Below are positions 2,757-49,684 of a stretch of 64,000 bases of DNA, piece by piece. The notes beneath the pieces are model-generated. The model saw only the letters and a list, made by a program, of their open reading frames with translations, searched no databases and was not told the origin of the DNA. Numbering within the stretch: the first letter of the stretch is position 1; every line of letters starts with the position of its first letter. This stretch comes from Morchella semilibera (lineage: Eukaryota; Ascomycota; Pezizomycetes; Pezizales; Morchellaceae). The stretch lies in contig CM018603.1 of NCBI GenBank assembly GCA_009192285.1, positions 1,465,802-1,529,801 of the forward strand, written 5' to 3'. Position numbers and translations under genes: made by a program.

Positions 2757-3420
2757 CTTTCTAACTGCTTCAGGTATGTACGCAATGAAATGATCTCCGC
2801 TGTCTCCAGTGCAACACCGCCGGAGGCTCTGCTATTGCGCTTGAACTCCACGAAGCCCAAGAGAAAATAGCTCCAAGACATCACCCATTCCCACAGCTAG
2901 TCCTATCTGCTGAGTATTCCTATCTCATGATGGTAAGCTAGCTAGGCCTCCAGAATGTATCGGTCAGTCCCAGCTGGTTGAATTATGGCGTAGCCTGACC
3001 TACATGTAGAGCAGTTCTGGCACCGAGTGACACCACATGAGTCGCTAACATTGAAAGGGTGGCAGACGAATCTTGAGGTGTTTGTAGTTGGATGTCCGAT
3101 ATGATCCAGCACTCCCCAAGATGACTAATCAGCGATGACTAATCAATGAAAATAGACGACTAAATGAAATGATGACTAATCAATGAAAAATATGACTGAT
3201 CACAAAACATGACTAATGACTCATCAAAAAAGTAACTGATCATAAAAAACAGGGTAATGACTCATTCTCTTCCCAATTAGGCTTAGCTCCTGATTACTAA
3301 TCAACGAAGTGCTAAGATAATTCGTTTCTACTATCCTTCTGACTCCTAATCCTCCTAGTCCTCTTTCCTTCTAGCTCAACACAAAGCTTTTACTATCGTG
3401 AGATTTGATCGTACCTAATC
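2757..3420. other. Downstream flank of the copia element with a TGACTAA/TGACTCA cluster
   Basis: No gene seen. Positions 3118-3265 hold at least four TGACTAATC words and two ATGACTCAT words (3216-3224 and 3257-3265) in an AT-rich imperfect tandem array. This is where the 3' LTR of the minus-strand copia element would be expected, but I find no match to the sequence beyond 8380, so LTR boundaries cannot be set. Confidence 0.45.
3118..3265. repeat. Imperfect AT-rich tandem array carrying AP-1/Gcn4-like sites
   Basis: Units resemble GATGACTAATCAATGAAAA with drift. ATGACTCAT, the classic Gcn4/AP-1 core, occurs exactly twice, and TGACTAAT several times. Regulatory function is inferred only from the words. 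Confidence 0.5.
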
Positions 3421-4154
3421 TTAATCCTCCACTATCTTCATACCCAAGTTATCGATAAACCTAGCATGTTGAGGTGTAGGCAGAGGCTTGGTAAAACCGT
3501 CGGCTAGCATCTCCCCCGTACGAATCGCTACCAGCTCGATATCTCCATTCGCTACTACCTTCTCTCTTATGCCGAAATAGCGTATCGCGATATGTTTGGG
3601 TGAAGGCTTCACTTCACCATCTCCTATTGCAGCGATACAGGCTTCGCTATCGCAGTAGAGCGTAGTCGTATATAAGGAGTATCCTTTCCAGTACTCTCCG
3701 TGTGCTTTTTGGTACGATTCGGGTGTTGACTTAGCATTAGGTTCTCCACCTAGGTGCTCGAAACCAAGCTCCGATAGGATCTCCTTGATGGCTCCTATAT
3801 GGGTGCAGGCGTATGCTCCAGCAATATACTCCGCTTCGGCAGTAGATTGTGCCGTAGTAGGTTGCCTGGTAGATTTCCACTGTATTGGCCCACCTAGAAG
3901 TGCTAGATATCCTGACGTTGATTTCATATCATAGGCTCCTCCATAATCTGCATCTGTGTACGCTCTTAGGGCCAAATCCTTTGGTTCACCTCCCAAAACC
4001 AGCCTCAAATCCAGCGTTCCTTTGATATATCTCAGGATCCTCTTTACCGCCGTCCAGTGCATCTCCCAGGGATCAGAAACAAAGCGTGAAACAACTCCTA
4101 CAGCGTAAGCAAGGTCGGGACGGGTAGGGCCCGCGGCTATCAGGCTTCCTACTG
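3421..4154 (-). pseudogene. copia RNase H domain and 3' end of RT (fragment of broken polyprotein)
   Basis: Frame 4062-3421 contains copia-type RNase H signatures: YTDADYGG, KSTSGYLALLGG, QSTAEAEYIA, then DSEACIAA, HIAIRYFGIRE and ADGFTKPLP near the C-terminus. Bases 4154-4063 continue the same frame upstream (PTRPDLAYAVG), which is the usual end of RT. The open frame is cut off upstream by the 137-bp insertion at 4155-4291. Normally this is the last part of a single Pol polyprotein made with the RT and integrase segments to the right. Confidence 0.9.
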
Positions 4155-4291
4155 CATCAGCAAGACTTCATTTGTCTCCTGATGTCTCCTGAGCCTCATG
4201 AGACTCAAAAAATATCAAGGGGTCTCAGGAGACTCTCAGGAGACCCAGGAGACTGTTGGGAGACTCCAGTCAGAAGTTGAGTTTGCTGATG
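4155..4291 (+). mobile_element. 137-bp inverted-repeat element, copy 1 (inside copia RT)
   Basis: The ends are CATCAGCAA and TTTGCTGATG, flanked by a 2-bp duplication TG/TG. The body is built of GTCTCC/GGAGAC words that can fold into a long imperfect hairpin. It is in the opposite orientation on the plus strand to copies 2 and 3. It brings an in-frame stop to the RT reading frame. There is no coding capacity, so if mobile it would depend on enzymes from elsewhere. Confidence 0.85.
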
Positions 4292-5323
4292 TGCCTTGCT
4301 GTATTCTGATTGGTCGACGCTAGGTGTTTCTATCGAGCTGATTGGATGCTTTTCTGACTTCCTGGGTAGTAACCTCAGCTTTGGGTCCATCGGAGTCTTC
4401 GCGGGTGTACAGTCTTCCATTCCGAAGCGCTCAAGCACTGCTTCCAAGTAATACTTTTGATCGAGCATCACTCTGTTACCGTCTCTGACTATTCTTCTAC
4501 CGACGTAAGCGCTAATCTCACCTAAATCTTTCATTTTGAAGCGTTCGCTAATCAATGCTTTCACCTCTTCCAATCGTCCTGATTTGGCGTCTAAGAAAGC
4601 TATATCATCCACATGAACGATCGCGATTAGCTGAAGCGTGCCGGTGTTTGCTTCCTTTAGCATAAAGATGCCGCCATCAAACAGGCTCTTTTGGAAGCCT
4701 ATCTCCAGAAGAAAGGTGCTTAGTAATAGATACCATTGCCGCGGAGACTGCTTAAGCCCGTATATGCTCTTCTTTAGCAGTAGTGTTAAGAGATACCTTT
4801 GTGCTGATAGGTGCTTCTTCTTTTTAGGCGCGATATCACTTCCAAACGTCATTTCCCACGTGCTCGGGTTCACCTCTACACCTTCCGGTATTTGTAGGTA
4901 GACCCTTCTTCCTTCTTCCATTTCTGACTCCAGAAACGCTGAGCATACATCCATAGACTCTATTGGCCAGTTAAACGCCGCTGCTATCGATATGCAGATA
5001 TTGGTGCAGTCAGTGCGCACTACTGGCGCGTAAGTTTGATCATAATCAACCCCTATTTGCTGTGTGAAGCCCTGAGCTACATATCTAGCTTTGAATTGAG
5101 GTATGCTTCTCTCTGCTTGGCTCCCCGAAACTGGATATTTGAGCTTATTCACCCACTTACCCCCTATCTCGTGAGCACCGGGGGGTAGCTCAACGACGTC
5201 AGCTGTCTTGTTGCTGACTAAGCTATCTAACTCCTTCTGGTAAGCTTCTCCCCATTGAGCACGTTGAGGACCCTGCATAGCCTTTCTAATCGTCGAAGGT
5301 GTCGTTAGCGCTGCTGTTAGCAT
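4292..5323 (-). pseudogene. copia reverse transcriptase segment
   Basis: The frame shows a Ty1/copia RT: WGEAYQKELDSL, KWVNKLKYP, KARYVAQGFTQQIGVDYDQTYAPVV, a VHVDDIAF catalytic motif (the copia YVDD equivalent, with VDD kept), FKMKDLGE and TPAKTPMDP. It is continuous with the integrase side in the same frame except for three stops. Its downstream end runs into the 137-bp element and stops there. The catalytic aspartate pair is visible, yet the gene as a whole cannot give a full polyprotein. Confidence 0.9.
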
Positions 5324-7909
5324 TGCATAGTTTTTCTTAGACGCGCTCCGAGTGCTACTTCGTGTATTGAATGCAGGTGCGTCTTGGAAAGCTTCTTATA
5401 CTCTTGGTATGGGTTTTCTTCCCCTTTTCTTATCCGGAGGGGGCATTTCCTCGACCTCTGGGGGAGTTTCGCTTGCTTCCGCTCCTTCCTCTTCTTCCTC
5501 TTTCAACTCTTTTGATTCAGTGAGTGAATCTCCCCCTGCTTTTTGAACTTGCGCCTTTTTCTGCTCCAGAATCATATCTTTTTTTACTGGGGTCGTAGCT
5601 TCTTTGGGTAACTGTTCTGGATACTCGGGAACTTCTCTCTCTTCATCTTGGTTAGCCCGAATAGTGAAAGTTACCTGATCACGGCTGATATCGGCGACCC
5701 CTAGGCTCTCGAATCTATCTCCTTCATTGAAGACGACATGCTTGGATGTAATTAGCTTGGCAGTACGCGGCTACCAAAAGTGCCACATCTTCGCCGTACT
5801 ACAATATCCTACGAAGATGCATTTCTCTGCCCTAGGATCAAGCTTCTTAGTAACTCCTAAGGCGCGATTAACATGTACGTATGCTACACATCCCCATACG
5901 CGCAATTCTGACAGACTTGGCTTAACGCCATACCACATCTCCCAAGGCGTTTTGAAGCTTCCGATTGGCTAAATGATACCTCTGGTAGGGCTTTTATTCT
6001 TCACATACACTGCCGCTGCCGCCGCGAGCGCCCAATAGGGTGCCGGCAATCCAGCGTCAGCCATCATACTCCTGACTTCCTCGATAATCGTGCGATTAGC
6101 GCGTTCAGCGACTCCGTTCTGCTGCGGCGTGTACGGCATCGTGATTTGGTGCTGTACTCCTGATTCCCGGAGGTGCTGTTTAAACGCCGCGCTAGTGAAT
6201 TCACCTCCGCCATCAGAGCGAAGCTTCTTCACTTTGTGTCCTTTATCTAGGTATATACGCTCTACTAGCGCTTCCCAATCACGATAGACGCCGAAAGCAT
6301 CTGACTTCTTCATTAACACATATAGGTGTGTGAACCGCGTGTAGTCGTCGATTAGAATCATCCAGTATTTAGCGCCGCCTAACGAGCTAGGAAAAGGTCC
6401 TGCGAGATCAGTGTGTACTAATTCTAAAGGATGATTGGCTCTCGAGGCGCTACTGACGCTGTTGAAGGTCTTCTTAGCGAGCTTACCGACACTACAATGC
6501 GAGCAATCTAGGTGCTCAACCGAGGTCATTTGAGGTACGTCGTCAGCATACTTATGCATCTCCTTGGTTGATTTTTCATTGAGATGCGCTAGTCTGCGGT
6601 GCCATAGCTTATATGCTTCCTTAGCAGGGCTCGTACTGGAGGCTGCAGATAGTGCCGTATTCTCCGTCCTGGCGGTTAGGAGAACGTATAGTCTTCCTAT
6701 CTTGATGGCTTTCCCAAAGGGGGGGGTATCTACACTATTTTTCAGGTGCATGCCCTTACCTTGCACTAGGCTCATATGTACGCCTGAGTCATCTAACTGA
6801 CTTACTGATAGCAGGGTGGTGTGTAGTCCTTCAACTAGGAGAACGTCTCTTAACGTTAGTATGCTTTCCCTAGAGCTCCCCGTTTGGAGGCTAATCGATA
6901 TGGTGCCTACGCCTACGGCGTCTACTAGCTCTCCATTCGCTATCCGAACCTGGTTTTCGCCGGGTAGGAGTTTCCTAAGACTCGTGAATATATCCGATCT
7001 CCAAGTCATGTGATGTGAGCAGCCGCTATCTATCAGATACAAGTTTTCTATTGGCCCGATTGATGCTAATTCGGCGCTTAGTGCTTCCTCTAGGGCGTTA
7101 AAGGAGTTGAACATCGCATTCTCGAGCCTGGAGCCTTGATTCGAGCTATTGCCGCCTCTTCCGGCGCTTCCTGCGCCTCCGCCTCTACCGCGAGGTCTCC
7201 ATTTGGGCTTACCCGCTATGTTTCCTCCTCCTGGTGCCCAGCACTTCTCGATTTGATGCCCTTTTCGACTGCAATTTGTGCAGGTTGGGATGGTGGCTGA
7301 ATTAGGCTGCGAGTATAGGGCTATACTCTCTTTTATTCCCTGCTTTGCTCTTTGGGCTGCCTCGTGGCTTTTTAGCTGACGCACGGAGCAGTCAAAATCT
7401 ACCGGATGGTGTGCTTTTATGATGCCGCGGGAGATATCCCAATCACGAGGTAATCCTTTCATTAGAGCAAAGTGAAGCTCCGACTTTGATACTACTTCTC
7501 CGTCGGTGGTAGCTATCTGCTTACTGTACTGTACGATTTTGGCGACATAGGAGTCAACCGATCCTTCATTGATGAGCTCTAGGCTATGCAGTAAGCCTCG
7601 GAGATGCTCCCCGTTATCCTCCATGGCAACCTTATCATCCGATTCCAGTAGCGTCCACAATTGTACGGGATCTTCGTTCATCTCATACCGGGCATAGAGT
7701 CTAGGACTCATTCCGAACAGTATCATCCCGCTTGCGAGGAGCTGTTTGTGTTCCCACTCGCCCTTTTTTAAGCGATAGATATTTTGGGGTATATGGCATA
7801 GGCGCCGTTGGCGCTGATGCCAATGCTTCCGGTATCGGATGAGAGCTAAGAAGCTCTCTATCTCGTGAATCATAAATGGTTGCTGACCCATCATCACATA
7901 GATTTTCAA
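5324..7909 (-). pseudogene. copia gag C-terminal part, protease and integrase, with in-frame stops
   Basis: The long frame 7945-5969 holds gag (EHKQLLASGMILFGMSPRLY), the CCHC knuckle CTNCSRKGHQIEKC, an aspartic protease motif (YLIDSGCSHHM), the GAG-pre-integrase part (LWHRRLAHLNEKS) and the integrase core (HTDLAGPFP, RSDGGGEFTS, PQQNGVAERANRTI). After the TAG near 5970 the same frame continues (FKTPWEMWYG and EKCIFVGYCS) through another TAG near 5772 and a TAA near 5390. All three stops could arise from CAG or CAA by one C-to-T change. An additional frame break lies upstream in gag. Confidence 0.9.
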
Positions 7910-8046
7910 CATCAGCAAACTCAACTTGTGGCTACTGTCTCCCAACAGTATCCCAAGTCTCCTGAGAGTCTCCTGAGACCCCTGGATATTTTTTCAGTCT
8001 CCTGAGGATCAGGAGACATCAGGAGACAAATGAAGTCTTGCTGATG
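7910..8046 (-). mobile_element. 137-bp inverted-repeat element, copy 2 (inside copia gag)
   Basis: The plus strand starts CATCAGCAAACTCAAC and ends GTCTTGCTGATG, flanked by an AA/AA duplication. The length is exactly 137 bp, as in copies 1 and 3, and the internal GTCTCC/GGAGAC hairpin words are shared. It splits gag. Confidence 0.85.
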
Positions 8047-8177
8047 AAAGGTGTATTCTCCAGATGTAATTCGCCACAATCTTTCCATCTGAAGCGCCTT
8101 TTTCATGTGTGAGCGCCACGTGGCGTAATTGGTATCAGTCAATTTTTCAACCCTTGCAGCCCAGCCCTTATCATTAG
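8047..8177 (-). pseudogene. copia gag N-terminal segment
   Basis: Between copies 2 and 3 the minus strand encodes a gag-like start: WAARVEKLTDTNYATW, then RSHMKKALQME and LWRITSGEY. The motif LTDTNYATWRSHM matches the usual copia gag N-terminus. The likely initiator ATG lies just upstream of copy 3, near 8320-8331. The segment is separated from the rest of gag by copy 2. Confidence 0.85.
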
Positions 8178-8314
8178 CATCAGCAAACTCAACTTGTGAC
8201 TGGAGTCTCCCAACAGTCTCCCGGGTCTCCTGAGAGTCTCCTGAGACTCCTGAATATTTTTTGAGTCTCATGAGGCTCAGGAGACATCAGGAGACAAATG
8301 AAGTCTTGCTGATG
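8178..8314 (-). mobile_element. 137-bp inverted-repeat element, copy 3 (at the start of copia gag)
   Basis: It starts CATCAGCAAACTCAAC and ends TTGCTGATG, flanked by AG/AG. It has the same length and orientation as copy 2, and is inserted a few codons after the probable gag start. Confidence 0.85.
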
Positions 8315-8367
8315 AGTTTCGGGCATCTTTGGCGCTTATTTCTTTTTATTTTTATCTTAGCGCTGCT

Positions 8368-8379
8368 GGGCTCATAACC
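8368..8379 (-). other. Primer-binding site complementary to the initiator tRNA-Met anticodon arm
   Basis: The plus strand reads GGGCTCATAACC, the anticodon stem-loop sequence of eukaryotic initiator tRNA-Met; the retroelement strand is its complement. Drosophila copia is known to prime from an internal half of the initiator tRNA, so this is most likely the minus-strand priming site, about 45 bases upstream of gag. Confidence 0.6.
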
Positions 8380-8384
8380 TGGTT

Positions 8385-10335
8385 TGATATCAGGACTGCG
8401 CTGAATTGATTAATTGATACTATCTAATATCCAAAGAGGATATAGTCTTGCTTTTTATAGTAATCAAATAAAGAGAATTATCTGTATAAAGAAAATATCC
8501 GTACAAAGGAAGATCAGATAAAGAGATAAAGAGATAGCTGATTCGTCAGCTTCTTTATACATGGAGATAATCCAGCACGATATACAAAGAAAATAGGTGG
8601 GGTGGTGGGTGTAAGGGTCTTACGTTGGTGCAGTGTGCATGTGGGCAGTGTGGCGCAGTCAGGCATTATTGATAATATACATGTAGTTTGTGGCTACATG
8701 TATATACAATAAAGAAGGTATGTCATGGACAGGTCTTCTTCTCTACGTAGCTACTGACTCCAGGCGCTATATGTTGGCCACTGGGGGTTTTGATAGCCCG
8801 CCACATGCACAGTTACATACATGCATACATGTATATACGGGGAAGTGCCTCACCCCCGAAACATGAACTACAACACCTTTGCAGAGCGATTGTATATGTA
8901 GGAATCAAGTACATGTAGTTAGCTACACCTAGGCCCCTCCCCCTTCTTTAGATATTGAGATCATGCTATATACGCTCCCACCTTGTAGCATTGCAAGACA
9001 GTAAATCTCTTTGGAGCGTGGCCGGAGGTGAGTCCGGGAAAGGCCAAGGTATGATACCGGCAGGATATGAGCGCCCTATGCTATAAAGGCACAGGTGTCC
9101 AATCGACATGGCTCGAGATATCGGTACCAATAAGTAGCAGTCAGTGTGTTGAATGGTTGGCAACTTCCAAGATGCCATGGTACGTCAAGTGTACATATTT
9201 GCAGGTGTGATCTGCGGGAGGTGACCAGTATTCTACCCATCGTTTAGGCGCCGCTATGTGGTCTAGTCGGATATATACTGTACAGGTCTCACCTCCAGCT
9301 TTAGCAATCTGACTACATACATCCATGGTCCGACCACTACCAAAGTCACCATCAAAATTTACTTACCTACATACTTATCTCTACCCACACCTATTCCTAA
9401 CAAGTCTCCTATAACTATCGGTATGACTCCACCTACCCCCGCTTCACCGACCTGCATGCTCTACCCATCCCACGCTAATGCCCATGGTTTCTGTCGGAGA
9501 AAGCCACCAAATACCTCACACCCCCGGAGCTCCGTGTAGTAACCGACCCGAGGCCCAAACAACTGTTACCGAATCCCTCGCCGTCTCATGGGCACAATGG
9601 CTCCTTAAGCCGGAACCTCTCGTTGAAATTCCCGAAACTGTAGGTTGTTTTTTACAACCCTTTTAGCTGTGCTGATGGACACCCCGAGAAATAGGTTTTT
9701 GGTTTGGATATCCAGGACTCACATTGCTTTTGCGCTGCTAACTTGGATGAGCGGATATATATAGGTAAACGGTCATCAGCTAGAATACTGGTACCTTATC
9801 TGACTCCTTGCTTTATGTCCGGGCGCCGGTGTCATTCCAGATAGTTTATAAGAGGCTATAGCGCTAGCTAGGGAGCTAGTTGTCATGGCTATTTCCTCAA
9901 ACAATGACATCTCGGACCTCCTTCTGAATCTGGATAGAGTATTGCACTAATTCCTGCTATGTTAGCTGGGGATATACTGTACCTTTTCAACCGTGATATC
10001 CCTTTCGTGCTTACCAGCACTTAGTACTGGTTGGCCCCGATAGTGGCAATATAGAGGGAAGTGTAAGTTACTGGTTTCTCTATATAGGCTGCAGCACTCC
10101 ATTCCAAATCATGACCAACCAGCCAGCCAAACAGACAACTTTTTGCGATTCAGTTCGATAATTAAAATATAAAGGGTGCAGATATGGGCTTTCACATGCC
10201 CTGGGTAATGACAGGGCTTGGACTAGTATTGAAAACGTACGCCTGGTGCAAAGTTGATTGGAGGAACGGTGAGGCAGGTTGTAATTGGTGGGGAGAGAAG
10301 GCAAGTGACAGCTATGGGTCATACTTGGGGACTAC
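8385..10335. other. Gene-poor stretch
   Basis: The first few hundred bases are AT-rich (AAAGAGATAAAGAGATA runs) and might include the copia 5' LTR, but no matching second LTR was found. Four TACATGTA palindromes lie at 8679-8920. Open frames at 8966-9326 and 9478-9666 do not look convincingly like protein. Confidence 0.45.
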
Positions 10336-10524
10336 CACCTGGTAGGCCGAGGCATGCTCAGGATCTGGTGCACTGCATATTATACAAACCCGGCTCTTGA
10401 CTTTCTATATAGGGTAATGGTATAATTAAGGTGACGACAGAAATTCCTTTTGCAGTGATTTTTGGTTCAAAGTTGCCAAGGCTGTAGTGCACCAGATTCT
10501 GAGCATGTCTCGGCCTGCCAGGTG
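10336..10524. mobile_element. 189-bp inverted-repeat element with ~40-bp terminal repeats
   Basis: The left end CACCTGGTAGGCCGAG and the reverse complement of the right end, CACCTGGCAGGCCGAG, match for about 40 bases with four mismatches (shared inner words CATGCTCAG and ATCTGGTGCACT). No clear target duplication was found. There is no coding capacity. Confidence 0.65.
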
Positions 10525-11604
10525 AACCGGCTTGATTTCTCTTGCTAGTAGGCTGCCCTCGCTGTTACTCACTGGCGTGACTGACAACGAGTGACAGTTT
10601 TCGCTTGTACATAGTAGTTTATCATTATCATATGACCTGGGACTATTGGCGGTGTATTCAAGGAGACCTTTAACGCCTATCGATTGGTTGAGGTAGAGCT
10701 CTTTACCCTATCTGGAACTGCACCCACATTTGCTTTCTTTTTGTGCGGGAAATATTATTGGAGGCAACCGATCAGCTAATCAAGTCAATATGATACCCTC
10801 TACGTTTGAGACATGCACATCTATGTTTGGCTAGTTATCTCTTTCTTGCCTGAGTAAGTAGATGTCTCATCCTTCTGCCTCCCGGCAAAGAAGATAACAA
10901 AGAGGCCAATTTTTATTTCTCCTATCGATGAAAGAGGTAGATGAGTATCTATTATCTCATTCTTACACACCGCCCAACATATTGTCCTCCTCAAATTTTT
11001 TTTGTCCGCAATATACAAGTACTATTTTTAATAGGACACTAAATATTCCAGCAATAACCTAAAAGTTAGTACTGTATGATGCTTGTTCTTTGTGATTATG
11101 AATGCATTAATTCCGACGTCATCTCACAATCGGATCCCGTGAACATATATTTTCCTTCCCTTCTAATAAAAGGTGGAAATAGGCACTGAGGTCGCAGCAC
11201 GGCGCCTTCCGGGCGTTGTGGATATCTTTCCGTTGGCGCAGTCACCGAAACATCACTCGGGGGTCAAGAGGTGGAACATACTCGACCCAGCGAGTAAACC
11301 ACTATACTCGTACCCAGTACTCGCTTAAAATTGGGGAAGGGAGAGTCTCCTAGGGAGACTCGAATTGTTTGCCCTTGTAGGTATGTCTTTTGGGATCCCT
11401 GGAGCAGCTGCTCCTTGGATTCTGGCTTCCTGCGACCGCCCTTCGGCCGGTGTGGCCGACAGGCACTGTACACCGATTTATAACGAGAAAAAACTGTGAA
11501 AACAAGTTCTGTCTACTTGCCGCGGAAGCATACAATGGCCTTTTATAATAAATACTCTGTTTACTAGCCTTTAAAGGTGATGGTTGTCTTGTCTGCTGTA
11601 GCAG
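10525..11604. other. Gene-poor stretch
   Basis: No convincing gene. Minus-strand open frames at 10821-11018 and 11264-11535 are short and low in protein character. Confidence 0.4.
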
Positions 11605-11954
11605 TATGGAGCGGTAAATGTGTCAAAAGTATGTAATTTTACCAACGGTAGTAAAGTATTTACCACCGGTGATGAAAAGAGTATCAGCATCTATATATAC
11701 CAATTTTTATTATTAAAGAGCAAGCCTTTTGGCAAGTGGGGCTAAATAATGCCAATATATGGGATTGTCCGGTGGGAAATTTTCATAAGTGTTGGTATAT
11801 ATGATTTATAAACATTTACTTATGTAGTATAGTACAGCATAATGACTGAAACCTAGTGTTTATAATTATGATATACCACTGGTGGTAGAAAATTCACTAT
11901 CGCTGGTTGATTACTTTTGGCACAGATTCCCGCCCCATATTTTACCACTCCATA
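11605..11954. mobile_element. 350-bp inverted-repeat element, copy 1
   Basis: It begins TATGGAGCGGTAAATGTG and ends with ACCACTCCATA. The flanks are GTAGCAG (11598-11604) and GTAGCAG (11955-11961), a 7-bp target duplication. It shares its terminal repeat and internal ACCACCGGT-type words with the 351-bp copy at 28223-28573. Non-coding. Confidence 0.75.
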
Positions 11955-12170
11955 GTAGCAGATCATGAGGGCATAGGATGGTTTAAATCAAGATCGAGGA
12001 AGGGCACATTTGGCAGCGAGTCTATATTGTTGCCATTGGGGAGCTGCATGTATGAAGTATAAATAAATAGATGATGTCATTGGGGAGCGAAACCGAGTGA
12101 TAATGGGTGAGTTGCCGGACAGAGATTTTAATGCTTTAAGTATTATTAATACGTTGGCCTGGGCATCCTA

Positions 12171-12251: not shown

Positions 12252-12264
12252 AAAGTCAAATGCA

Positions 12265-12273
12265 TTTTTTTTT
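12265..12273 (+). terminator. Pol III terminator of tRNA-His
   Basis: A T9 run begins 14 bases after the tRNA 3' end. Confidence 0.7.
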
Positions 12274-12274
12274 G

Positions 12275-15217: not shown

Positions 15218-15222
15218 CTATC

Positions 15223-18501: not shown

Positions 18502-19455
18502 TAGCCCTAGATGTAGTTCATGGGGTAGGAACCGGACTTGCTCGTGGTTCACGAGTATAGTACACAGGCCAACTCACATCGGACGCCAAGCAGACATCCC
18601 CCCCGCCGGGGAAGGATCCAAAGAATTTTCTAGATCCCTTCGATCATTGGGTATGTTCTTCCTCAACACATTGCATATTTAATTATAATATTTCTAACAG
18701 AAGAGTAGGCTCACAAAAAGGTTCTACGCCTGTGCATTCTTATCTAGTCATGGCTTGACCTGACGCTAGAAGAATCAAGAGCTGCCGGTGCAGCCATATC
18801 TCACAACCGATCGGGCTGTTTCCTTCTAGTGGAAAAAGTCCCCTTTACATGGAGTTTTACTCGAGGCGTTCAAACTTTGCTAGGTTTGTAGACCTTTCTT
18901 GAACTTTCCACTAGATTTTGCTAACTAACTAAAAACAGTATATCCGCCCTCCTCCCGCCCCGCGCCAGCCAGACAACCACGCCGGTTTGATTGATCAAGC
19001 AAAACAACACTCTTCCTTTCTGATCTATCAACCCGGGAACGCAATCCGCCTCATGTTTGGGGAGGCGGAATCAATGGAGCCTAGTGCGCTAGTGTCTACT
19101 TCCCACCACAAGTCACGATAGTTGGACTCGGGGGTATCAACCGCATGTATATATATTGTGGTTTGTGAGAGTGTCGTGTATACTTAATTGTGGGGACCAA
19201 TGGCGGACACGGAGGAGCAGGCCATCTGTGAGGAATCTGGGGTGGGGGTTGGTGGAGTCAAATGTGGGGACAATAGGAGATAGTGAATTTCTACTTCCTG
19301 TATTTTTAGAACTATATCATTATCTCTTCTCAACATTTTATCTCTTCTCAACATTTCCCCACTTTGTTTCCTAGGTTTCGTGGCGGCGGTGGCACCATAA
19401 CACCATGGCAACCATATACCAACCCTAACCCTACGAGTTTAGTTACATGTATGTA

Positions 19456-20340: not shown

Positions 20341-21180
20341 ATGCCACCAGCTCCACCACCCCAGCTCCAGCTCCAGCTCCAGCTCCAGCCCCAGCCCCAG
20401 CTCCAGCCCCAGCTCCAGCCCCAGCCCCAGCTCCAGCCCCAGCCCCAGCCCCAGCTCCAGCCCCAGCCCCAGCCCCAGCTCCAGCCCCAGCCCCAGCCCC
20501 AGCCCCAGCTCCAGCCCCAGCCCCAGCTCCAGCTCCAGCCCCAGCTCCAGCTCCAGAACCGGACGCACCCGGACCGCCGCGGGTCCATGCTCGCGCCTAC
20601 CTCCGCCGCGACTTCGTCAACTCCAAGCGGACCCCGCGCAATGCCTACGCCCGCCGCGAGCCCGGCTTCCACGGCCCCGAGCAAAGAAACTACAACCAGT
20701 TCCAGCAGACGATTGACCGGCTGCGCGTGGCCCGGCGCGCCCACGACGTCCTCTACGACCGCTACTACCAGGAGACGTACGACGTGCGGCAGTCGGCGCT
20801 GCACGCGCCCTGGCGCACGTGGATCAACCCCCCGTTCTCCGACAACGCGCGCGAGTATCTGGACCTGGCGCGCAACCCGGACATGCCAGCGCAGCCGATA
20901 CCCATCCGGGATGCTTACGTCTGCCGAGGTCAGGGCGTGGCTGGGCCGCGGGATAGAGCCCGTGTATTCCCCGGAGGAGACGGAGACGCTGAATAGGTGG
21001 AAGGTGGTGTGCTTTGCGGCGTCGTTGAAGGATCTCCAGATCATGTACCAGATGAGGGTCGTGCAAGCGTTGGCGGTGGAGGAGAGCGTGGATTGGAACA
21101 CGCATTGGGATTCGAGGTTGGGGGAGATTGACGGGGTGGAGTGGGGGTGGGAGCTCACAGTGGGGAGGAATCAGCGGTGA
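20341..21180 (+). CDS. Ala/Pro-repeat protein of unknown function, apparent frameshifts
   Basis: An ATG at 20341 starts MPPAPPP in the frame that later reads PQLQ. The protein-like frame after the repeat is another one: an (AP)n tract, then YLRRDFVNSKRTPRNAY, VARRAHDVLYDRYYQETYD, APWRTWINPPFSDNAREY up to about 20920. Beyond that the first frame becomes protein-like again (VRAWLGRGIEPVYSPEE, LNRWKVVCFAASLKDLQIMY) to the TGA at 21178. One-base changes near 20360 (in CACCCC) and near 20920 would join them. The gene is intronless and very GC-rich, with a C-rich 5' half and a G-rich 3' half. It begins MPP then (PA)n like the gene at 39353, but I see no clear similarity beyond that. Confidence 0.5.
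   Translation: MPPAPPPQLQLQLQLQPQPQLQPQLQPQPQLQPQPQPQLQPQPQPQLQPQPQPQPQLQPQPQLQLQPQLQLQNRTHPDRRGSMLAPTSAATSSTPSGPRAMPTPAASPASTAPSKETTTSSSRRLTGCAWPGAPTTSSTTATTRRRTTCGSRRCTRPGARGSTPRSPTTRASIWTWRATRTCQRSRYPSGMLTSAEVRAWLGRGIEPVYSPEETETLNRWKVVCFAASLKDLQIMYQMRVVQALAVEESVDWNTHWDSRLGEIDGVEWGWELTVGRNQR
20355..20558 (+). repeat. Hexanucleotide CCAGCY repeat inside the Ala/Pro gene
   Basis: About 34 units of CCAGCC or CCAGCT. It is read as (PA)n, (PQ/LQ)n or (SS/SP)n according to frame, and copy-number change keeps the frame. Confidence 0.85.
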
Positions 21181-36276: not shown

Positions 36277-36277
36277 C

Positions 36278-39026: not shown

Positions 39027-39058
<32 letters not shown>

Positions 39059-40012: not shown

Positions 40013-41594
40013 CGGGACTGGTGGACTGGGTTTTGTGGTTATGTGGTTTTAGGTTTTTAATTTATTGCCCCCGCGTTCGTGATGATTGCAGTACGCTCTC
40101 TATATTGTAGCTCGTGCAGAATAGGTAGATGCGCGCCCGCGGTCCGATCTTGACCCACCAACTAGCTAGCCCATTGCTGTAGTATTTATATATATTGACC
40201 ACTTCCTTCCTTCCCTCCTTCCTTCCTCTACAGTCGTAACCACGTCCGCGGCGCGAACCGAAACACCCTCACGATAAACTACACCAAACCACTCCGCCAC
40301 CCCCAAACTGCAAACCAGAACCGCAAACCGGCTTCTCACCCCCAACAAGCAGGGTTAGGGTTCCACCCGGCCAGACAAAGAACCACCGGACAAAGAAACC
40401 GTTCGCCACCCCAGCCAGCCCCTGGACGCGGGCGAGCCTAAACTGAGAAGGGTGGTGGTTGAGAATGGGGTGTAGGGGGAGGGTTGAGTGTGGACTATGT
40501 ACGTACACGGGGGGTTCTGGGGTGCTGGATACATAAAATATTGCGTTTCTTGACAGTCATGACCCATCACTCGCCATCGAACCGGCCCCACCCACGCCAC
40601 AAACACCCGCACGCAGATAGGGCTGGGGGTACGCCTGCGGTATTGTGTTACACGCCGAGGGTGCTGGCAGACACGGGTTCGTAGGCTAGTATGTGTATGT
40701 GTATTCACCGAGACGTAGCGGTGGGGAGGAAGGGCCGGTACTTACCTGCACTGCACTCTATGGTTGTGCGGTCTGCATAACCCCGGAATGCCCTCACCTC
40801 CCCGGGGCGGCGGTGTTGTGGACCAATCCAGGTAGGTGGTAGGTAGGTACCTGTATGGGTGCTGCTTGGATCCAGCACAGTCAACCACTTCTGTACCCGG
40901 TATTGCTGCAGTAACGGGTTCGGACATGTAAACAAAGGGCGGTCGAGTGATCATCGGTGATCGCGTGCTGCATGAGATATCACTCGGGGAATGTATCCTC
41001 ATTATTGTAGGCCTGTGTGCCAAGGGGGTTGTTACGAAGGGCTGCTAGGGTCCCTCCTGTGTCGGGTCAAGACGTGACAGGGTTATGGTCGCGCCAGACT
41101 CTATCACGAGGGGTGGCTGTGGGTGGGGCGGGCGCAGGGGGTACACAGCTAGCTGTGTACCTGTGTGGTGCCATCCCCTATTTTGGTGTGCCGGTTGGGA
41201 TGTGGTATTTATGTATATCAGTCTATTAGTCCGTAAAGAAATACCGATTGGGTCTGGGGACGGGACTAGTGCCAGACAAGCAGTCGAGGGCCATGTCGTA
41301 TTACAGGCTTTTGTATGTACCCGGAAATAAGGGTGTAACGACACCAGATATCCTACGGCAACACTTCAAGTCGTAACCGGAGGGGATTATCGTGGGACCT
41401 CTTTACCGACATCACAGATAATATTCTCTCAAACAACGTTGTATTCATTTCTCTCCTAGTCATCCTCATTAAGTACTCCACAGACGCTCAAACACAAAAA
41501 CAAAATTCTAACCATCAATAAAAACACGCTCATGAAAAAGAGACATTAAATAAAAATCGCTAAATAGCCATCCGTCAATACAAACTACTACTTC
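40013..41594. other. Intergenic stretch
   Basis: It contains CATG-N5-TCACTCGG exactly at 40971-40987 and with one mismatch at 40558-40574. No gene supported. The 3' end overlaps the AT-rich 3' flank of the minus-strand gene that ends at 41595. Confidence 0.4.
40971..40987 (+). promoter_or_regulatory. CATG-N5-TCACTCGG motif
   Basis: Exact match (N5 = AGATA). Function unknown. Confidence 0.35.
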
Positions 41595-44500
41595 TCAATA
41601 CCCATACGGCGTGCTCCCATACGGCGTGCTCCCTCCAGCACCGTTCCTCATCTTCGCCCTCTCCAACGGTGTCATCCCCATATTACCAGGGCCCGGGCCA
41701 ACCACCGGCGAACCAACTCTGCCGACGGCTGGTGACCCAACTCTGCCGACTACTGGCGACCCAATCCTTCCGACGGCTGGTGACCCGGTCCTTCCGACAG
41801 CCGGTGACGCAGTCCTGCCAACAGCCGGCGACGCAGTCCTGCCAACAGCCGGCGATGCAACTCTCCCGGCCGGGGTTGCATTTCTCCCGCCATTCGCCTC
41901 CTCGATCTCAACCTGCGCTTCGAGTTTCTTATACGCCTCCTCCACCGCTTTGTCCACGATATCGAAATCGCCCTCAACCACAGCGATGCGCTCCGTCAAC
42001 TCCTTGTCGGTCTCTGCGTCGGCCTTCCCCTTCTCACTTGCTACGCCCTCAATAACCTCCTTTGCAGAGCCAGCAAGGTGTGCCTCCGCAAGGTTAACCT
42101 GGTTTGAAGAGTCGTTGATGAGAAGAGAGGCGGCGTGGAAGACTTTCATGAATTTGATCGAGGTTTCTTTGAGGTCTTTGAGAGTGTCGTATGCGCAGGC
42201 GATTTCCCGCTTGGTCAGCGCTGCGTCGCTACCAGGCGAGGGCAGTGTGTTGACAAGTGTGGTGACAGCGGCAGTGATCTCCTCGGTATAGTTGAGTTCG
42301 GCATCTAGCCCACGTTCGATACTCTCCTCGATGGTGTTCATCAGCTGCTGCGTACGCTCGTGTTTCGCTTGTGCCGCTTCAAGAACACTACCGGATAACA
42401 AAGAATCAGCATCAACACTTATACTGGCAGCGCAAGGGATTACATACGCTTTCTTCTCGCTCTCCTCAAAATGTTTCTCCATGCTCTTCATCTTAGCAAT
42501 GTTCCCACTTACGTATAATGGCTGGATGACCGTCTTTTTAAACTTCTTGTCCCGTTCAAGGACAGCCAACTGGACCTTCCAATGCCTGTTCTCAATAAAC
42601 TTGCTCAACTCTAGCAAGCCTTCCATCAACTCCGTCAACTCAGCACTATCAGATACGGCCCATCTATCTTTGCCGGCAGCGGTATTCGGAACCATCGCTT
42701 GAACCTCGTAATATTTCTCCATGAGACCCCGGATACCCTCCTGGATCTTGTCGTACACCTTCGAAAACACCTCCGTGCAGTAGATCTCGTACTCCTCTTC
42801 CTCTTCCTTGGCCTCCGTCCTTGCTTCTTTCGCCTGAAACTCCGCCTCCATTTCCTTGATATCCCCATACCCAATCTGCTCATCGGTAAATAGATCGTTG
42901 GTGTATTGCTCATGCTCCTCTACGCGAGCCCGACGCTCTTCGTCCAACTTTCTCCGGCGCTTTTTGGCAGATTCAGCATAAGCACGGTTGATCTCCTCAA
43001 TGAAACCAAAGTCTTCACCGATACTGTCGATTGTCTTTCTCACGTCATCCAAAACCTTTGTCTCGTTACTCCTTGGAGCACGATTCTTTGGCAATATAGC
43101 TGATAGGGCATCTAAAGCTGGGTTCGGGGCGGGCGTAGTGGGAAAATAACTCTGTCTCTTCTTATCCGAAACCTCGTCTCCACCATTTGGAGTAGAAAAA
43201 ACGCTTGCGCTCCCACCCGGACTAGGATACGTATCTTGGGGGTAAGGTTGATGATACCCATCGACGTAGGTCTTACTGCCCTTCAATGAACCGAAAGGGT
43301 GAACACCCCCTTGGCTAGTAGGACTCTCCATCATGGTCTCCGACCTCGACGGAGGATGACCAGGGCCAACAGAGTTACGTTTTGGGTGTTGGCCCGGCCC
43401 ACCAGACATGAAGGTCGATGCTCTCTTTGGATCAAACGCGATAAAATCGCTTCCGCCAGGGGCTGGAGACGGTTTTCTGCCACCCTGGATCACCGGGTTG
43501 TATGGTTTGTATATCCCTGTTGACTCGGGTGTCTGCTTAGGCGGTGGTGTAGCTGCGGTTTCGGTACCGTTGAAGGGGGCGTATTGATCTCCAGTAGCTC
43601 CAAATGTGAATCTGGTGGGAGAAGATGGGGACGCAGGATTAAAAGATTTGTACTCACTCTTCTGTGCCGATGGTGGGGAGACAGGGTCTTGACTAAAAGC
43701 AACATGCCCTTGATTCAGGTTTTGTGCGAGCACCGATTCGGGCCGCTTCCTAATGACCAGAGGCTCAGGTGATATTGGTGGATCCTCCAACGTCACTGGT
43801 GTATGCTTCGGTCTCGGAGACTGTTTCTTCGGCTCTGTTTGTGAAACAGGTGTTTTAGGTTTTTCCAGTGTCCAAGGAGTAGTAGGCTGTGCTCCTGCCT
43901 CAATGGTTCCAGATGGAACTGAAAGTTTAATTTCCGCCGGTGGGTCTGCGGAAGAGTTGCTTCTGGATCTTTGCGTCGGTCCTATCGCACTTTCAGGTAG
44001 TAATCCAAGTTTATCCTTCGAGTCCTCTTCGCGTCCGTCATACTGTGGTAATTTTCCATATACGCTGCTCTGCCGGCTGGGGGGGTCGCCAAGTGCGTGA
44101 GGATACCGCTGACCTCGGACATAGTATTCGTGTTCCATGAAATCGGTAAAGATCTTGAGCTTCTCTTCGTCCGTCCTTGCCGCGACCTCTGCCTGGATCA
44201 TGAGGATGAAGCGTTGAATGGAGTCGGTGTAGAATTGGTCTAGATTGCCGAGCGGGTCGGGATCTTGTTGTTCCTGGCTAGGCGGCTGGGTCATCGTCAC
44301 TGATGTGGCAGGAGTAAGGATGGTGGTTTCTGACAGCGCCGGCGTTGCCCCTCCCACCGTTCTAGGTGGGCCTGTGTTCTCAGGGTAAGTCTGGGGCTGA
44401 ACTGGGGGTTCCGGTTGGTGCTGTTCCTCTGTTAGCTGTGGCCAGCCTCCAGGAATGTGCGTCTCTTGGCCAGGAGTGTGCGACCGAGGCCATCCCCCGG

Positions 44501-47020
44501 GAACATTAATACTAACTTTAGGGTCTTCAGTTTGTTGAGGCTTAGGCCCCTGCGGGGCAGGAGTTGTGAGGTGGTCTTGTGGAGCCCATTGCTGATTGTC
44601 GTTTTGTTTCTGCTGTGTCTGGTTATTTTGGGGCCAGTGCCGGTTATTCTCGTTCTTCTCTGCCTGCTGATCCTGCTCCTGAGACTGGTCTTGATGCCAG
44701 ATTTGGTTGTCTTGATGTTGAGCCTGCTGTTTATCCTGCTCCCGAGGCTGCTGGTCCTGATGCCGCATTTGGTTGTCTTGATGTTGTGCCTGCTGCTGCT
44801 GCGACCACGCCTGGGTATCCTGCGATTGCTGTTGCGGCCAGGACTGTTGATGTTCTAATTCTTTCAATTTCTCCAAACCCGGCACCTGCACACCCCCTGC
44901 TGGGGATTCCGACCAACTGGCCTTCGAGTCCTTGTATGCATAATCTGAAGTCTGTATCGGGGGTGGTGCAGCGCTAGTTCTTTGTGCACTCGGCGTCCCA
45001 GTACCCTTTCTACCACTTGCCCCACTCGAAGGCCTCTGGAAACCACCATGTCCCTGGATACCACTACCGGGCCTGCTACCAAAGAGTTGAGCATGTTGAA
45101 ACGCATTTCCGGGGCCTTGCGGATGCTTTGTATCCGGGCTGGCAGTGAATGCATGCGCGGGGGGTGGAGGTGGCGTAGGACTGTGACCCTCTTTCTGATT
45201 CCACCTGCCGCTGCCAGTCGCTATCTCAACAGGGCTGTGTGCCTTCACCGGCTTTGGGTGGTGCACATCGACGGGCGAGATCGGTCTACTGACTACAATG
45301 TTGGATTCTTCACTTTTGCCGCCGTAATGTTCCCAGTTTTTTTGTGCGCCCCCGAATGTTTTGGTTTTCGGGGGGGCTTAGGTTTTGTGAACAGTGGTTC
45401 TGGTTGGATCGTGTGGAACGTCTCCTTCCGTTTCGGGGGTGCAGATGAGCCAGTGGTTTGATTTTGCTGCTGCTGTTGTGCGAAATGATCAAGAAATGCG
45501 GATGCAGCAGGTTGGATCGGAGCGGCAGCGGGAGGTGGAGTGGCGTTTGACAGCGGCTGATTATATTGTGATCCGTTGTTCCAGTTAGATGTTGGCGTGT
45601 TCTGGAACTGTTGTGACTGCGGCTGCTGGTATTCGCCTTGGTTTTGGCCGTGGGACCAGTAATTCCCTTGATCAGTCTGGTTTGAGGCTTGCGCTGGTCT
45701 TTGTGTATTGTGGTCCGGCTGATACTGCTGCTGGTTGTCGTACTGCTGCGTGTCTTGATATGGATACTGGTGTTGTTGCGTACCTGTATATTGATTTGTG
45801 GTAGAAGCTGAGTAGTCCAGGACCGGGGGTGTATAAGTAAACGGCTTCTTCTGCTCTGGTTCTTGGGTTACACCCCAAGCCGGAACCGTAGTTGAAGTGG
45901 GATAAACGCCAGTGGTAGGGTTTATAGTACCAGCTTGGTAGCTAGTTGTATTTGAAAGCGAAGAAGGGGCAGCATAACTACCACCCAGATATCAGTCCTC
46001 TGATGCTGTAAACGGTTCTCACGAGTGCTATACAAACCTTGAATGATCACCAGCCGGGCTCGATGTTGTATCCACCTGTCCATACGCACCGCCGGGGGTA
46101 ATTCCCCCATCGTAATATCCATGATGTCCTTGGCTCTGGGGCTGTGAGTATTGTTGCTGTGTTGTGGATCCCCACTGATGGCCTTGGCTCTGATGGACTT
46201 GACCGGTTGTCGATTGTGAATACTTGTTCTCGTCCTGATACTGTCCATACGATGTATCCACTGGGGGAGGCGGTGGTGGAGGTGGAGGCGGCGGCGGCGG
46301 TGGTGGTGGTGGTGGGGCCTGTTGCGGAGTGGAGGATTGCCCGTATGGAGAGGGGCTATAGGATGAATTTGGGTTACTGTTGTAGCCACCGCTCATAGGA
46401 TTATAAACGACGCTTGAAGGTCTTGGTGGGACTGGTGGGACTTGCGGCTGCCATTGTTGAGGCTGCTGTTGTTGACCCCAGCTTTGTGGAGGAGGCGGGG
46501 GCGGAGGTGGTGGCTGGTGGTGCTGCTGTTGGTATGGCGAGTGCTGCTGGGTGTAAGGCTGTTGCGGTGGGTACTGCTGGTACTGTGAATTATGGTAGGT
46601 GGTTTGTTGTGGGGAGTATCCACCTAAAAGAAGAGGTTAGAGATTAGGGACTGTCTGTAGAAACCGTGTGTAATCTTAATAATTTACTGCGCGATGTATA
46701 TAGCCACTGAGGACGCCCTTCGTCCCTGTGTCACCCGAGAGCAAAACAAGCACCACGAACATCCTCGAGGTTTGACTCGTACTTATCAAACATTTCCTCT
46801 TCCTTCCACCTCTTGTATTGACAATAAAATAATAACGTAGCAAAAACTCACCCGTATAGCTTGGTACACCTGTCGCGCTCCCACCCATCTGCCCCTGCCC
46901 CAAGTACTGCTGTTGCTGCTGGCCGTACATATTATGCTGTTGCTGCGGTTGTTGAGTCGTATCAACTCTCGGACCATTCCACGGTGGTGGTACTTTGTAG
47001 ATATGATTGTTCGAGGTCAT
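41595..47020 (-). CDS. Large Gln/Pro-rich protein with coiled-coil C-terminal half (three exons, one frame break)
   Basis: Exon 1 is 47020-46852 (ATG at 47020), exon 2 is 46623-46038 and exon 3 is 45978-41595. The introns are 46851-46624 (GTGAGT, CTAACC, TTTTAG) and 46037-45979 (GTTTGT, GGTAG); phases agree across both joins. Exon 3 breaks frame at a run of seven C on the coding strand (45370-45376); one more C would restore it. The total is about 1700 residues. The first ~700 are low complexity: poly-Q, a run of about 18 prolines, YGQ/NQ-rich prion-like text. A WEHYGG motif follows. The last ~450 residues are Glu/Lys-rich helices (KKRRRKLDEERRARVEEHEQ, EEEYEIYCTEVFSKVYDKIQ), ending with eight-residue GR[VTI]xSPAV repeats. 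I do not recognise the family; a scaffold or condensate-forming role is speculation. Confidence 0.8.
41701..41870 (-). repeat. 24-base coding repeat (GRxxSPAV) near the C-terminus
   Basis: About seven tandem units encode GRTASPAV-like octapeptides with conserved Ser-Pro, possible proline-directed phosphorylation sites. Confidence 0.8.
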
Positions 47021-47762
47021 GGAGGAGAGAGTATCGCGATAACAATCTAGCTCTATTTCTCTCCTTATTGTGGTGTGGTTGTGTTTGTTGATGTAGTTAG
47101 TAGTGGGTGGGTGTGCTAGGTCGGGTTCAGCCGCAGCCTTGCTTGCTTGGCCTTGGCAGATACGAAGAGGGGTTGGGCTGCTGCAGTTTACAACACGCGC
47201 TTTAGCTGCACTTTGTGAATCTGGATGGACAACACCTCAAAGAGACGATGGTTCTAGATGCAAGAAGAGCTTTGACCGATGCGAAGATGAGAAGATGATG
47301 CTTTGACTTTTTTCTTTTTTTTCTTCTAAAATGATTTCCCCGCTGACAAGAAATCAGGGTCCGGGGGTCTTTCCACGTGGGACTGACGTGGTTTACATAG
47401 GCCAGGAGAAGGTCAGTCAGGCAGGTAAGGTAGAGAGAGTTAAGTAACCTAGGGATCGTACGGGTTGTCGTTGGAATAAGGTAGGGATAAAAAAGAAGGC
47501 ACGACACTTCCAAGGAAGGGAAATGAGCAAGGGTGCCCATGTTGTCGGAAACTGTGGCAAGTGAGTGGCTAGGACACTTGCGATCACAGGAACATACAGG
47601 TATGACATCATGGATCGGGCTTGAGAGATAAGCAAACGCCAAACACACTTTTTGCATGTGTGTGTTTTCAGAAAGATATAAACTCTACCCCCCTAGTCCT
47701 TGTCACTACTCTATCACGTTCCACTCTTGAGAAGTCATTTGTCCTGTCTCTATCTGCCAAGA
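47021..47762. other. Divergent promoter region between the Gln-rich gene and the zinc-binding gene
   Basis: About 740 bases separate two ATGs pointing in opposite directions. Pyrimidine-rich stretches (CTCTATTTCTCTCC near 47050) lie near the minus-strand start, and GATATAAACTCTACCCCCC lies about 80 bases before 47763. Confidence 0.4.
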
Positions 47763-48459
47763 ATGGCTCCTGCTGAAAAACACCAATCAGTTGAATCAGA
47801 CACTGACCTCCCACCAGCTAAGAAGCAAGAGACAGAAAACTTGATATCGGCTGCTAGTCCAGCCCCTTCGAAACCTCGAAACCCAGTCTTTGAAGACCTC
47901 GCCGCAAAATACCCCACGGCCGAGAAATTGGAGGAACATCTAAAGTCCCTATCCCGCCCTGCTCTTGTGGCTCTAATAATGTCCGGAGCATTTCCAAATG
48001 TAATTATCACCAGTCAGAGGTGATATAGCATCAGAAATTGGTACTTATTGATTCATCTAGGCCTCCTCAGAGCTCCGCCATTGCGTCTACTGCCACAAAA
48101 CATACCATGCATCCGATAACGACCCAGGCAACTGTTCCGTTAAGCATTTCCGCGACTATGTGGATCTCGACGGAGACGAGATGGAGTGGCAGTGTTGCGG
48201 CAATCGCTGGTCAGATGCAGACTGTGATGATTGGATGGAAAGTAGCGAGACTATGTTCCCCGACTGCTTCGTGGGGCGCCACAGGTCAGAGGAGATCACG
48301 ACAGATGATGAGGAGGATGTAGAGGAAGAGAACCAGGCGGATTATATGGTTATGGATAGCACCCCTCAGGCAGATAGCAGGCTGGTATGGTGGAGGGAAT
48401 GGAGGACTCATGGAAAAACATGCAAGAAAATTGGTTGCAAAGAGATGTTGGAGGCGTAA
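47763..48459 (+). CDS. Two-exon protein with a putative CxxC...H zinc-binding motif
   Basis: Exon 1 is 47763-47999, the intron is 48000-48060 (61 bases, GTAATT...CATCTAG) and exon 2 is 48061-48459, with phase 0 and a clean frame: 211 residues. The N-terminus is charged with a basic PPAKK stretch; residues about 45-75 are helical (EDLAAKYPTAEKLEEHLKSL). Exon 2 begins with HCVYCHKTYHASDNDPGNCS followed by VKHF, an arrangement of CxxC, Cys and His that suggests one bound zinc ion, then WQCCGNRWSDADCDDWME and an acidic stretch. Such motifs are common in uncharacterised fungal proteins. Its partner or nucleic-acid target is not predictable. Confidence 0.75.
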
Positions 48460-49684
48460 CTATTTATTATATCATATTATCGTACGTGGTTGGCTATATT
48501 TGTAGCTCTTTACGTGGTTAAGTGCTCAAAAGATAGTTTCTTTATACCTAACGCGCCCACAGCATCGGTTTTAGAGGGCAGTCACATAATTTAGTAGTCC
48601 CAAGGGCCCCCGTATTGTATAATTGATCAAGCCAACCAAGTAAGCCTTTATCGCACTTGGTTACACTATCCCAAAACGACCTAAACCGAGTGACTACATA
48701 TGACCCAGGACCCGCTTACCAGTGTGACCGCACCCTTAAATGCTTTCAAAAAAGTAAGGCATGAACGATTCATCTAGTTATGCAATAACTAATGCATGCC
48801 AGTAGGGAGTTTGGGATTCCTTAAGTGTGGTGTGTATGGTTGGTAGCCTCTGTATATATTCTTATACCACTCTAGATATACAGAAAGTGAGACGGCTCAT
48901 GAGATAGAAGGCCATATATCAGTAGGATGCTCGTGTGGCCAATAGTAGATACCGAGTGATACCTCATGAGTTAATCACCAAAGCTACAAAAGTATTGCTG
49001 GGCCCTTGTGAATCGTTATTCCCGAGATATATGTAAAGTTGGGCCTTATAACTTAACTCCCTCCAGGAGTACGTAAGATTAAGATAGGATGAGGTTTGGA
49101 TATAGTTATTTAAACCTCTGAGTTTAACATCTTAGTTGAATAATCTCTCTCTTGGCTGTGTGTCTCTGGGGGTATGTGTTTTTTGATGTATAGTTTACTG
49201 TAATCAAAGGCGTGTCATAAGCCCAAAGCTCGAGACGGGAAACAAAAACCCTAGCCATCACCGATATAATTATATAACCGACCACGAACACTATCGTTTA
49301 GAGAATTGCGCAGACTAAGGAGTTTCTAGCCCAGGCCAACGAACTACATGTCCGTATGCCCTACTACAGTGCAGTGCCGGACAAGTGGCCTCTGGTACAA
49401 CCCGGGAAAAGATACAACCAAAGTGTGCAGGACCAAAAAGCCAGCAAATAGTGTTTATAATACCAAATTCACAACACGTAGACCAAAGCAATCCACGACA
49501 GAGACGCTTCAAGATACTAACAATAGTATTTTTAACGAAAAGGCTATCTAAACTGCGAAGCTTGTATGAAATAATTCATGCTAAATGAAAGAGACCACCA
49601 AGTATATCCTCCGCAAGAGCCCCTCATGATGAAACTCATTTAGAAGCATCAAATAAGCTACCCGCGCGAGGAAGAAACCTTTAA
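48460..49684. other. Intergenic stretch
   Basis: It carries the 17-bp motif on the minus strand, exact at 48952-48968 and with one mismatch at 48686-48702. No gene supported. Confidence 0.4.
48952..48968 (-). promoter_or_regulatory. CATG-N5-TCACTCGG motif
   Basis: Exact match on the minus strand (N5 = AGGTA). Function unknown. Confidence 0.35.

Follow-up and report, generated by a model that had tools for sequence, protein, structure and literature searches.

An abundant 18-bp two-block motif outside coding DNA in Morchella semilibera, a candidate recognition site of a DNA-binding protein

Why would a genome carry the same two short words, at the same distance from each other, thousands of times and mostly outside its genes? 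This question is raised by a stretch of 64,000 nucleotides from Morchella semilibera (GenBank assembly GCA_009192285.1, contig CM018603.1, positions 1,465,802 to 1,529,801 of the forward strand; hereafter the window), in which a sequence-only reading had noticed dispersed copies of CATG-N5-TCACTCGG and had proposed either a bipartite protein-bound site or a target of a mobile element. Here, we establish the motif with its spacing and register, its abundance, its avoidance of exons, the presence of paired sites and the scarcity of imperfect copies. The first half of the proposal, a bipartite site with a fixed spacer, stands, and a mobile-element target is not supported. The motif may well be the recognition site of an abundant predicted binder that marks the borders of genes in the manner of general regulatory or insulator factors; its identity as a binding site is strongly supported by inference, and a boundary function is plausible.

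The motif, its spacing and its abundance

All six exact copies previously claimed for the window (at 3023 on the minus strand, 19951, 26897, 26915, 40971 and, again on the minus strand, 48952) were recovered at the positions given, as were the four copies with one mismatch (28130, 36277, 40558 and, on the minus strand, 48686). A fifth one-mismatch copy, absent from the earlier description, was found at 59292. Copies with at most one mismatch averaged 0.25 (maximum 2) in 100 shuffled versions of the window, and among spacers of 0 to 15 bases, N5 gave six exact copies and all others none. Counting was extended to the whole genome (56.76 Mb, 23 contigs), with the reversed pattern as control. CATGN5TCACTCGG occurs 1,219 times (649 + 570; control 1), compared with 72 occurrences for the five spacers of CATGN0-4TCACTCGG together (control 10) and 528 for the 25 spacers of CATGN6-30TCACTCGG together (control 72), or approximately 21 per spacer. 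The genome-wide preference for one spacer that had been suggested as a check is therefore evident, with 1,219 copies for N5 vs. 14-21 for each other spacer. Among the first 100 hits with spacers of 6 to 30, many can be seen by eye to end in a site that has the correct spacing and CAC or CATA as its own first block. In addition, TCAYRRRNYATCACTCGG was found 730 times (control 0). Because some contigs are near-duplicates (C9/C10, C12/C13 and C21/C22), the independent counts are somewhat below these totals.

Refinement of a weight matrix on 262,218 bp, made up of the window and 20 stretches of contig C1 (L011-L030), gave the 18-bp consensus R-TCAY-RRRNY(A/G)-TCACTCG-(G/A) with a TCAY-to-TCAC distance of 10 bp. 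The original half-sites thus survive as two blocks with a fixed spacer, but they had been misdrawn: the blocks are really TCAY and TCACTCG, six bases apart. CATG is one form of TCAY, a T standing directly 5' of it in 28 of 34 exact copies; the final G of the original pattern is weak (G frequency 0.56 in the matrix), and the N5 that was thought to vary freely is actually RRNY(A/G). At a threshold of 13 bits, the matrix identified 107 sites, compared with none in one shuffled copy of the sequence, none for the reversed matrix and an average of 2.07 (maximum 6) for 60 column-permuted matrices. Five held-out stretches (L032-L036; 43,605 bp), which were not picked for copies, contain nine sites (reversed matrix 0, permuted average 0.32); three of the five carry sites, and L033 and L034 are site-free. 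When spacers of 0 to 20 between the two core blocks were scanned in the 262,218 bp, a spacer of six gave 79 matches and each other spacer 0-4. Genome-wide, the core TCAYN6TCACTCG is present at 8,470 places, evenly distributed between the strands (4,244 vs. 4,226), with 44 for the control and an estimated 54 or so expected at even base frequencies. This density, one core per 6.7 kb, is close to that of the gene models (45 in 262 kb, or one per 5.8 kb), that is, about one site per gene.

Near-invariant blocks, purine/pyrimidine degeneracy between them and a 10-bp register are together what a protein sitting on one face of the helix would produce. Moreover, the fixed spacing throughout the genome, the degeneracy, the site pairs and the avoidance of exons all fit a protein-bound DNA site, and judging from these sequence features the motif is very probably bound by a protein. 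In double-stranded form, it would be recognized by a single abundant protein, or a fixed dimer, that binds DNA in a sequence-specific manner. This binder would touch TCAY and TCACTCG, whose TCA steps are separated by 10 bp and face roughly the same side of the helix, and would show purine/pyrimidine preferences between the blocks.

The window contains 23 sites of at least 13 bits, 18 of which match TCAYN6TCACTCG exactly. Three are weak, at 15-16 bits (5348, 36276 and 53499), and the match previously listed at 36277, which overlaps a predicted start codon and scores 15.0 bits, may be a chance occurrence. The sites are as follows (exact and one-mismatch copies refer to CATG-N5-TCACTCGG):

850..867, plus strand, site TCATCACTGGTCACTCGA, 17.6 bits
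3023..3040, minus strand, exact copy, 22.3 bits
5348..5365, minus strand, weak match within a copia coding open reading frame (ORF), possibly chance, 16.2 bits
12093..12110, minus strand, site with a predicted tRNA 78 bp away, 19.4 bits
15831..15848, plus strand, site, 20.0 bits
16551..16568, minus strand, site, 22.2 bits
16865..16882, minus strand, site, 23.2 bits
19950..19967, plus strand, exact copy, 27.4 bits
26896..26913, plus strand, exact copy, first of a head-to-tail pair with an 18-bp period, 22.8 bits
26914..26931, plus strand, exact copy, second of the 18-bp head-to-tail pair, 23.6 bits
28129..28146, plus strand, one-mismatch copy, 25.5 bits
30000..30017, plus strand, site of the CATA form, 25.4 bits
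36276..36293, plus strand, weak and possibly chance match that overlaps a predicted start codon, 15.0 bits
38087..38104, plus strand, site of the CAC form, 22.2 bits
38962..38979, minus strand, site, 22.3 bits
40557..40574, plus strand, one-mismatch copy, 22.6 bits
40943..40960, minus strand, site head-to-head with that at 40970, 20.4 bits
40970..40987, plus strand, exact copy head-to-head with the site at 40943, 22.7 bits
48686..48703, minus strand, one-mismatch copy, 22.2 bits
48952..48969, minus strand, exact copy, 25.8 bits
53499..53516, plus strand, weak match with a predicted tRNA 153 bp away, 15.2 bits
59291..59308, plus strand, the additional one-mismatch copy, 21.9 bits
62311..62328, plus strand, site, 21.1 bits

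Arrangement of the sites and their position relative to genes

Sites often occur close together. Throughout the genome, 379 head-to-tail pairs within 31 bp were found (control 33; the figure includes plain TCACTCG runs), along with 99 tail-to-tail and 85 head-to-head places (control 1 each), whereas an even spread of TCACTCG words would give an estimated 50, 25 and 25 or so, respectively. In the first 100 head-to-tail cases, a period of 18 leads (14 cases), followed by 26 (nine) and by 19, 23 and 28 (seven each); three of the period-23 cases belong to a single array. L013 has three sites in 18-bp steps and L031 four sites in 23-bp steps. Examination of 49 of 50 listed head-to-head places revealed two full sites in 35, a gap of 9 being the commonest (nine of 35). 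The 100 exact copies listed over the first 4.56 Mb of C1 have a gap coefficient of variation of 1.68, with nine gaps below 1 kb (2.1 expected) and a largest gap of 403 kb; L032, a 4-kb stretch inside this gap, still has one site, of 26.9 bits. Such an uneven spread of exact copies, the tandem arrays and a long bipartite build of 17-18 bp could also belong to a site that serves meiosis, homolog pairing or a centromere-like function and is recognized by a zinc-finger protein or a tandem helix-turn-helix protein. We consider this very improbable, given that sites are present in the window, in all 20 copy-selected stretches and in three of the five others, and come to about one per gene genome-wide.

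Genes were placed with a home-made finder, which produced 45 models (one of them replaced by hand) with few and short introns; APC2, Bub1, CstF64 and Arp4 are among the genes of the analyzed stretches. Arp4, encoded in L018, scored best against chains 8a5d and 23fu (327.9 and 327.8 bits), ahead of human-type ACTL6A (231) and other Arp4 entries (173); 8a5d is from a filamentous ascomycete and the 173-bit entries are from budding yeast. Together with the copia and gypsy elements, these genes and introns resemble those of a filamentous ascomycete. Only one of the 107 sites is exonic (28.7 expected), three lie within long coding ORFs picked by composition (27.6 expected), and seven are contained entirely within gene spans (34.2 expected). 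The centres of eight sites fall in gene spans, compared with a null average of 32.9, and none of 5,000 circular shifts gave a number as low. We infer that selection keeps these sites, and it would thereby maintain thousands of copies outside coding DNA.

Profiles around 41 starts and 35 stops (three retroelement models excluded) gave densities of 0, 0.33 and 0.30 sites per kb up to 500 bp upstream of starts and 0.66 at 500-750 bp. Past stops, the first 100 bp contain no site, and the density is then 0.76, 1.05, 1.25, 1.48 and 0.93 per kb up to 1,500 bp, the densest zone being 250-1000 bp past stops (1.05-1.48 per kb). Gaps between convergent genes hold 1.46 sites per kb (nine sites), tandem gaps 0.51 (16 sites) and divergent gaps 0.37 (14 sites). 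GC skew is +0.043 before and -0.054 after the sites, a shift equalled in 13 of 1,000 random non-coding sets, and AT skew across the sites gave no signal. TACATGTA, a second abundant intergenic word, does not favor 3' positions in these stretches, so the 3' bias of the sites is not merely a property of intergenic DNA. With regard to the tRNA association of a Pol III/TFIIIC site, four of the eight predicted tRNAs have a site within 270 bp (approximately 1.7 expected by estimate), too few for a convincing link. Overall, the evidence from position is suggestive rather than firm.

The raised density past stops might point to an RNA-level element in untranslated regions, acting in processing, stability or 3' end formation as a signal. 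Yet the two strands are about equally represented there (18 of 33 sites at 100-1000 bp past stops are on the same strand as the gene), and the first 100 bp are empty. For lack of strand bias and of sites in these first 100 bp, the RNA-level element was rejected, and we attach next to no probability to it. Location outside genes, 3' bias and the absence of strand preference would also suit a role in replication, with an initiator that recognizes a specific sequence binding at origins or at another replication element. This is quite improbable: one site per 6.7 kb or so is far denser than the usual spacing of origins, the flanks lack A/T richness, and the literature search surfaced no such case for filamentous fungi among the papers listed. 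The yeast-type consensus of autonomously replicating sequences, which is T-rich, is likewise not matched by a motif of mixed composition whose flanks are not rich in A/T.

In number, place, strand balance and pairing, the sites agree better with a boundary or general regulatory factor than with a protein that controls a single set of genes. Sitting between transcription units, and in many cases beyond the ends of genes, the protein would fix chromatin structure; alternatively, the bound protein would block read-through and cross-talk among neighbouring genes. A boundary- or general-factor-like role, rather than the activation of a gene set, could tentatively be assigned to it. A more specific version is CTCF-like punctuation in a lineage without CTCF, in which one putative protein, with a long asymmetric site about once per gene, would insulate genes or anchor chromatin domains through single, 18-bp tandem and head-to-head sites between transcription units; this we regard as unlikely.

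Several observations weigh against the boundary role. Each of the 20 stretches L011-L030 was picked for holding at least one exact copy. The gene models are approximate (at least one of the 45 is wrong), the counts per gene arrangement are small, and in the start and stop profiles one site may count for two neighbouring genes. The nearest gene end is a 3' end for 49 of 87 sites vs. 41.8 expected, which is a slight bias, and neither 3' ends (5 sites vs. 5.6 expected) nor 5' ends (5 vs. 6.2) show an excess within 250 bp. AT-rich flanks, which general factors often have, were not seen around the sites. Part of the pair excess may be due to tandem duplication, as in the 23-bp array of four, or to TCACTCG runs. 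Finally, the density of 1.31 sites per kb at 750-1000 bp upstream of starts leaves room for a distal promoter role. This upstream density, the sites in divergent and tandem gaps, the slight nearest-end bias and the site pairs, which enhancers usually have, would all be compatible with an ordinary non-boundary transcription factor with very many targets in distal promoters or enhancers, the 3' bias then being a small-sample accident. We hold this to be somewhat unlikely, because the 500 bp before starts are depleted, the density past stops is higher, and the sites number in the thousands, about one per gene.

Origin of the copies and other features of the stretches

Thousands of dispersed copies, some of them in tandem arrays, could also be target sites, terminal repeats or remnants of a mobile element. 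We compared the flanks of the 107 sites (250 bp per side, motif masked) with 107 random flanks by BLAST. Site flanks gave 32 pairs, comprising 29 overlapping flanks of neighbouring sites and three matches of approximately 20 bp, and random flanks gave 19 pairs, four of them from different places. Beyond these three short matches, BLAST detected no long shared homology among the flanks of the 107 sites. Copies that had decayed at mixed ages should produce a broad tail of mismatches. Against the averages of 10 shuffles, TCAYN6TCACTCG was found 79 times exactly (vs. 0), 35 times with one mismatch (vs. 7.3), 103 times with two (vs. 91.9) and 826 times with three (vs. 838.7), resulting in an excess of 79, approximately 28, approximately 11 and none. 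Graded decay, looked for by these mismatch counts, thus leaves hardly any tail, and most one-mismatch changes affect either the first T or one of the less conserved positions in the second block. The degeneracy follows purine/pyrimidine classes, and no site is present in L033, where the ORFs resemble those of gypsy elements by eye. In favor of a mobile element, several sites line up directly outside a gypsy element, in addition to the number and tandem arrangement of the copies; in view of the absence of common flanks and the fewness of imperfect copies, we give this origin hardly any credence. The same two results speak against the alignment of the copies into one decayed transposon family, the outcome that had been named as refuting a protein-bound site, and for these reasons a transposon remnant was rejected.

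The gypsy-type element mentioned above spans 3913-9739 of L012 on the minus strand, with reverse transcriptase, RNase H, integrase and gag, and the sites outside it are at 8215, 9415 and 9794 of L011 and at 1726, 1977 and 2200 of L012. The window itself carries a copia-type element at 4208-7945 on the minus strand, with matches to gag, integrase and reverse transcriptase.

Further features were observed in the same data. The second abundant intergenic word is the palindrome TANNTACATGTANNTA, present at 3,317 places genome-wide vs. 251 for the reversed control (for example, G000:C1:1485241-1485256, corresponding to window 19440-19455). TACATGTA has 103 copies in 262 kb, none of them exonic (27.5 expected), and does not co-locate with the main motif in these stretches. 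A small dispersed repeat around TAAATGTGTCAAAAGTAATTT was found in the window at 11615, 28233 and 28563 (minus strand), in L014 at 835 and in L026 at 6703 (minus strand); its flanks of approximately 50 bp are alike by eye, resembling a miniature inverted-repeat transposable element. Window positions 20363-20551 are dense in AGCTCCAGC repeats (13 of the 16 copies in the window) within an ORF that encodes proline-alanine runs. One window ORF had no match in a phage collection. The contig pairs C9/C10, C12/C13 and C21/C22 share matching places and represent either haplotypes that were retained in the assembly or a chromosome that is duplicated there almost perfectly; C9 is identical to C10 over the 5,001 bp compared, and this pair therefore carries no information on allelic constraint. 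Since the sole 5.8S rRNA match is weak (G000:C19:2699587-2699758; 39.5 bits, under the family cut-off of 42), the assembly may lack ordinary ribosomal repeats.

Comparison with known systems

Like the motif, the sites of Abf1 and Reb1 in budding yeast are very many for one abundant protein. Sites of yeast general factors lie mostly in promoters, whereas those of the motif are sparse in the 500 bp before starts. The core of Reb1 sites is TTACCCG, which is not contained in the motif consensus by eye. Abf1 likewise recognizes two blocks separated by a fixed spacer, and general regulatory factors of budding yeast are described as chromatin barriers, according to an excerpt of one paper (PMC12305957); the Abf1 pattern given in that excerpt, CGTNNNNNRNGAB, is absent by eye from both strands of the motif consensus, which has no CGT. 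With respect to the way of working, thousands of sites, at about one per gene and outside coding DNA, are what we found, as for a general regulatory factor.

Terminator and fork-barrier sites of the Reb1/TTF-I/Rtf1 type are 17-18 bp long and are read by tandem Myb-like repeats. Like the motif, they are placed past gene ends, and they differ from it in sequence. CENP-B boxes are 17 bp long and their binder has a tandem helix-turn-helix; they resemble the motif in length and two-block build, but differ in sequence, and the sites of the motif are dispersed, with no satellite context seen. Animal CTCF sites are also long and asymmetric, present in thousands of copies in both orientations and, according to one abstract, sometimes in tandem, and their sequence differs from the motif. 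As stated in an excerpt of a 2023 review (PMC10246852), the CTCF gene is found in higher metazoans only, and the boundary or insulator regions of fungi still await detailed study.

Literature searches with TCACTCGG, TCACTCG, CGAGTGAT and ATCACTCG surfaced no such motif among the papers listed, logos and supplements being outside the search. As a long, precise, frequent and non-coding site, the motif offers a concrete handle on its putative binder and on whether a fungus like this one specifies its gene boundaries by sequence.

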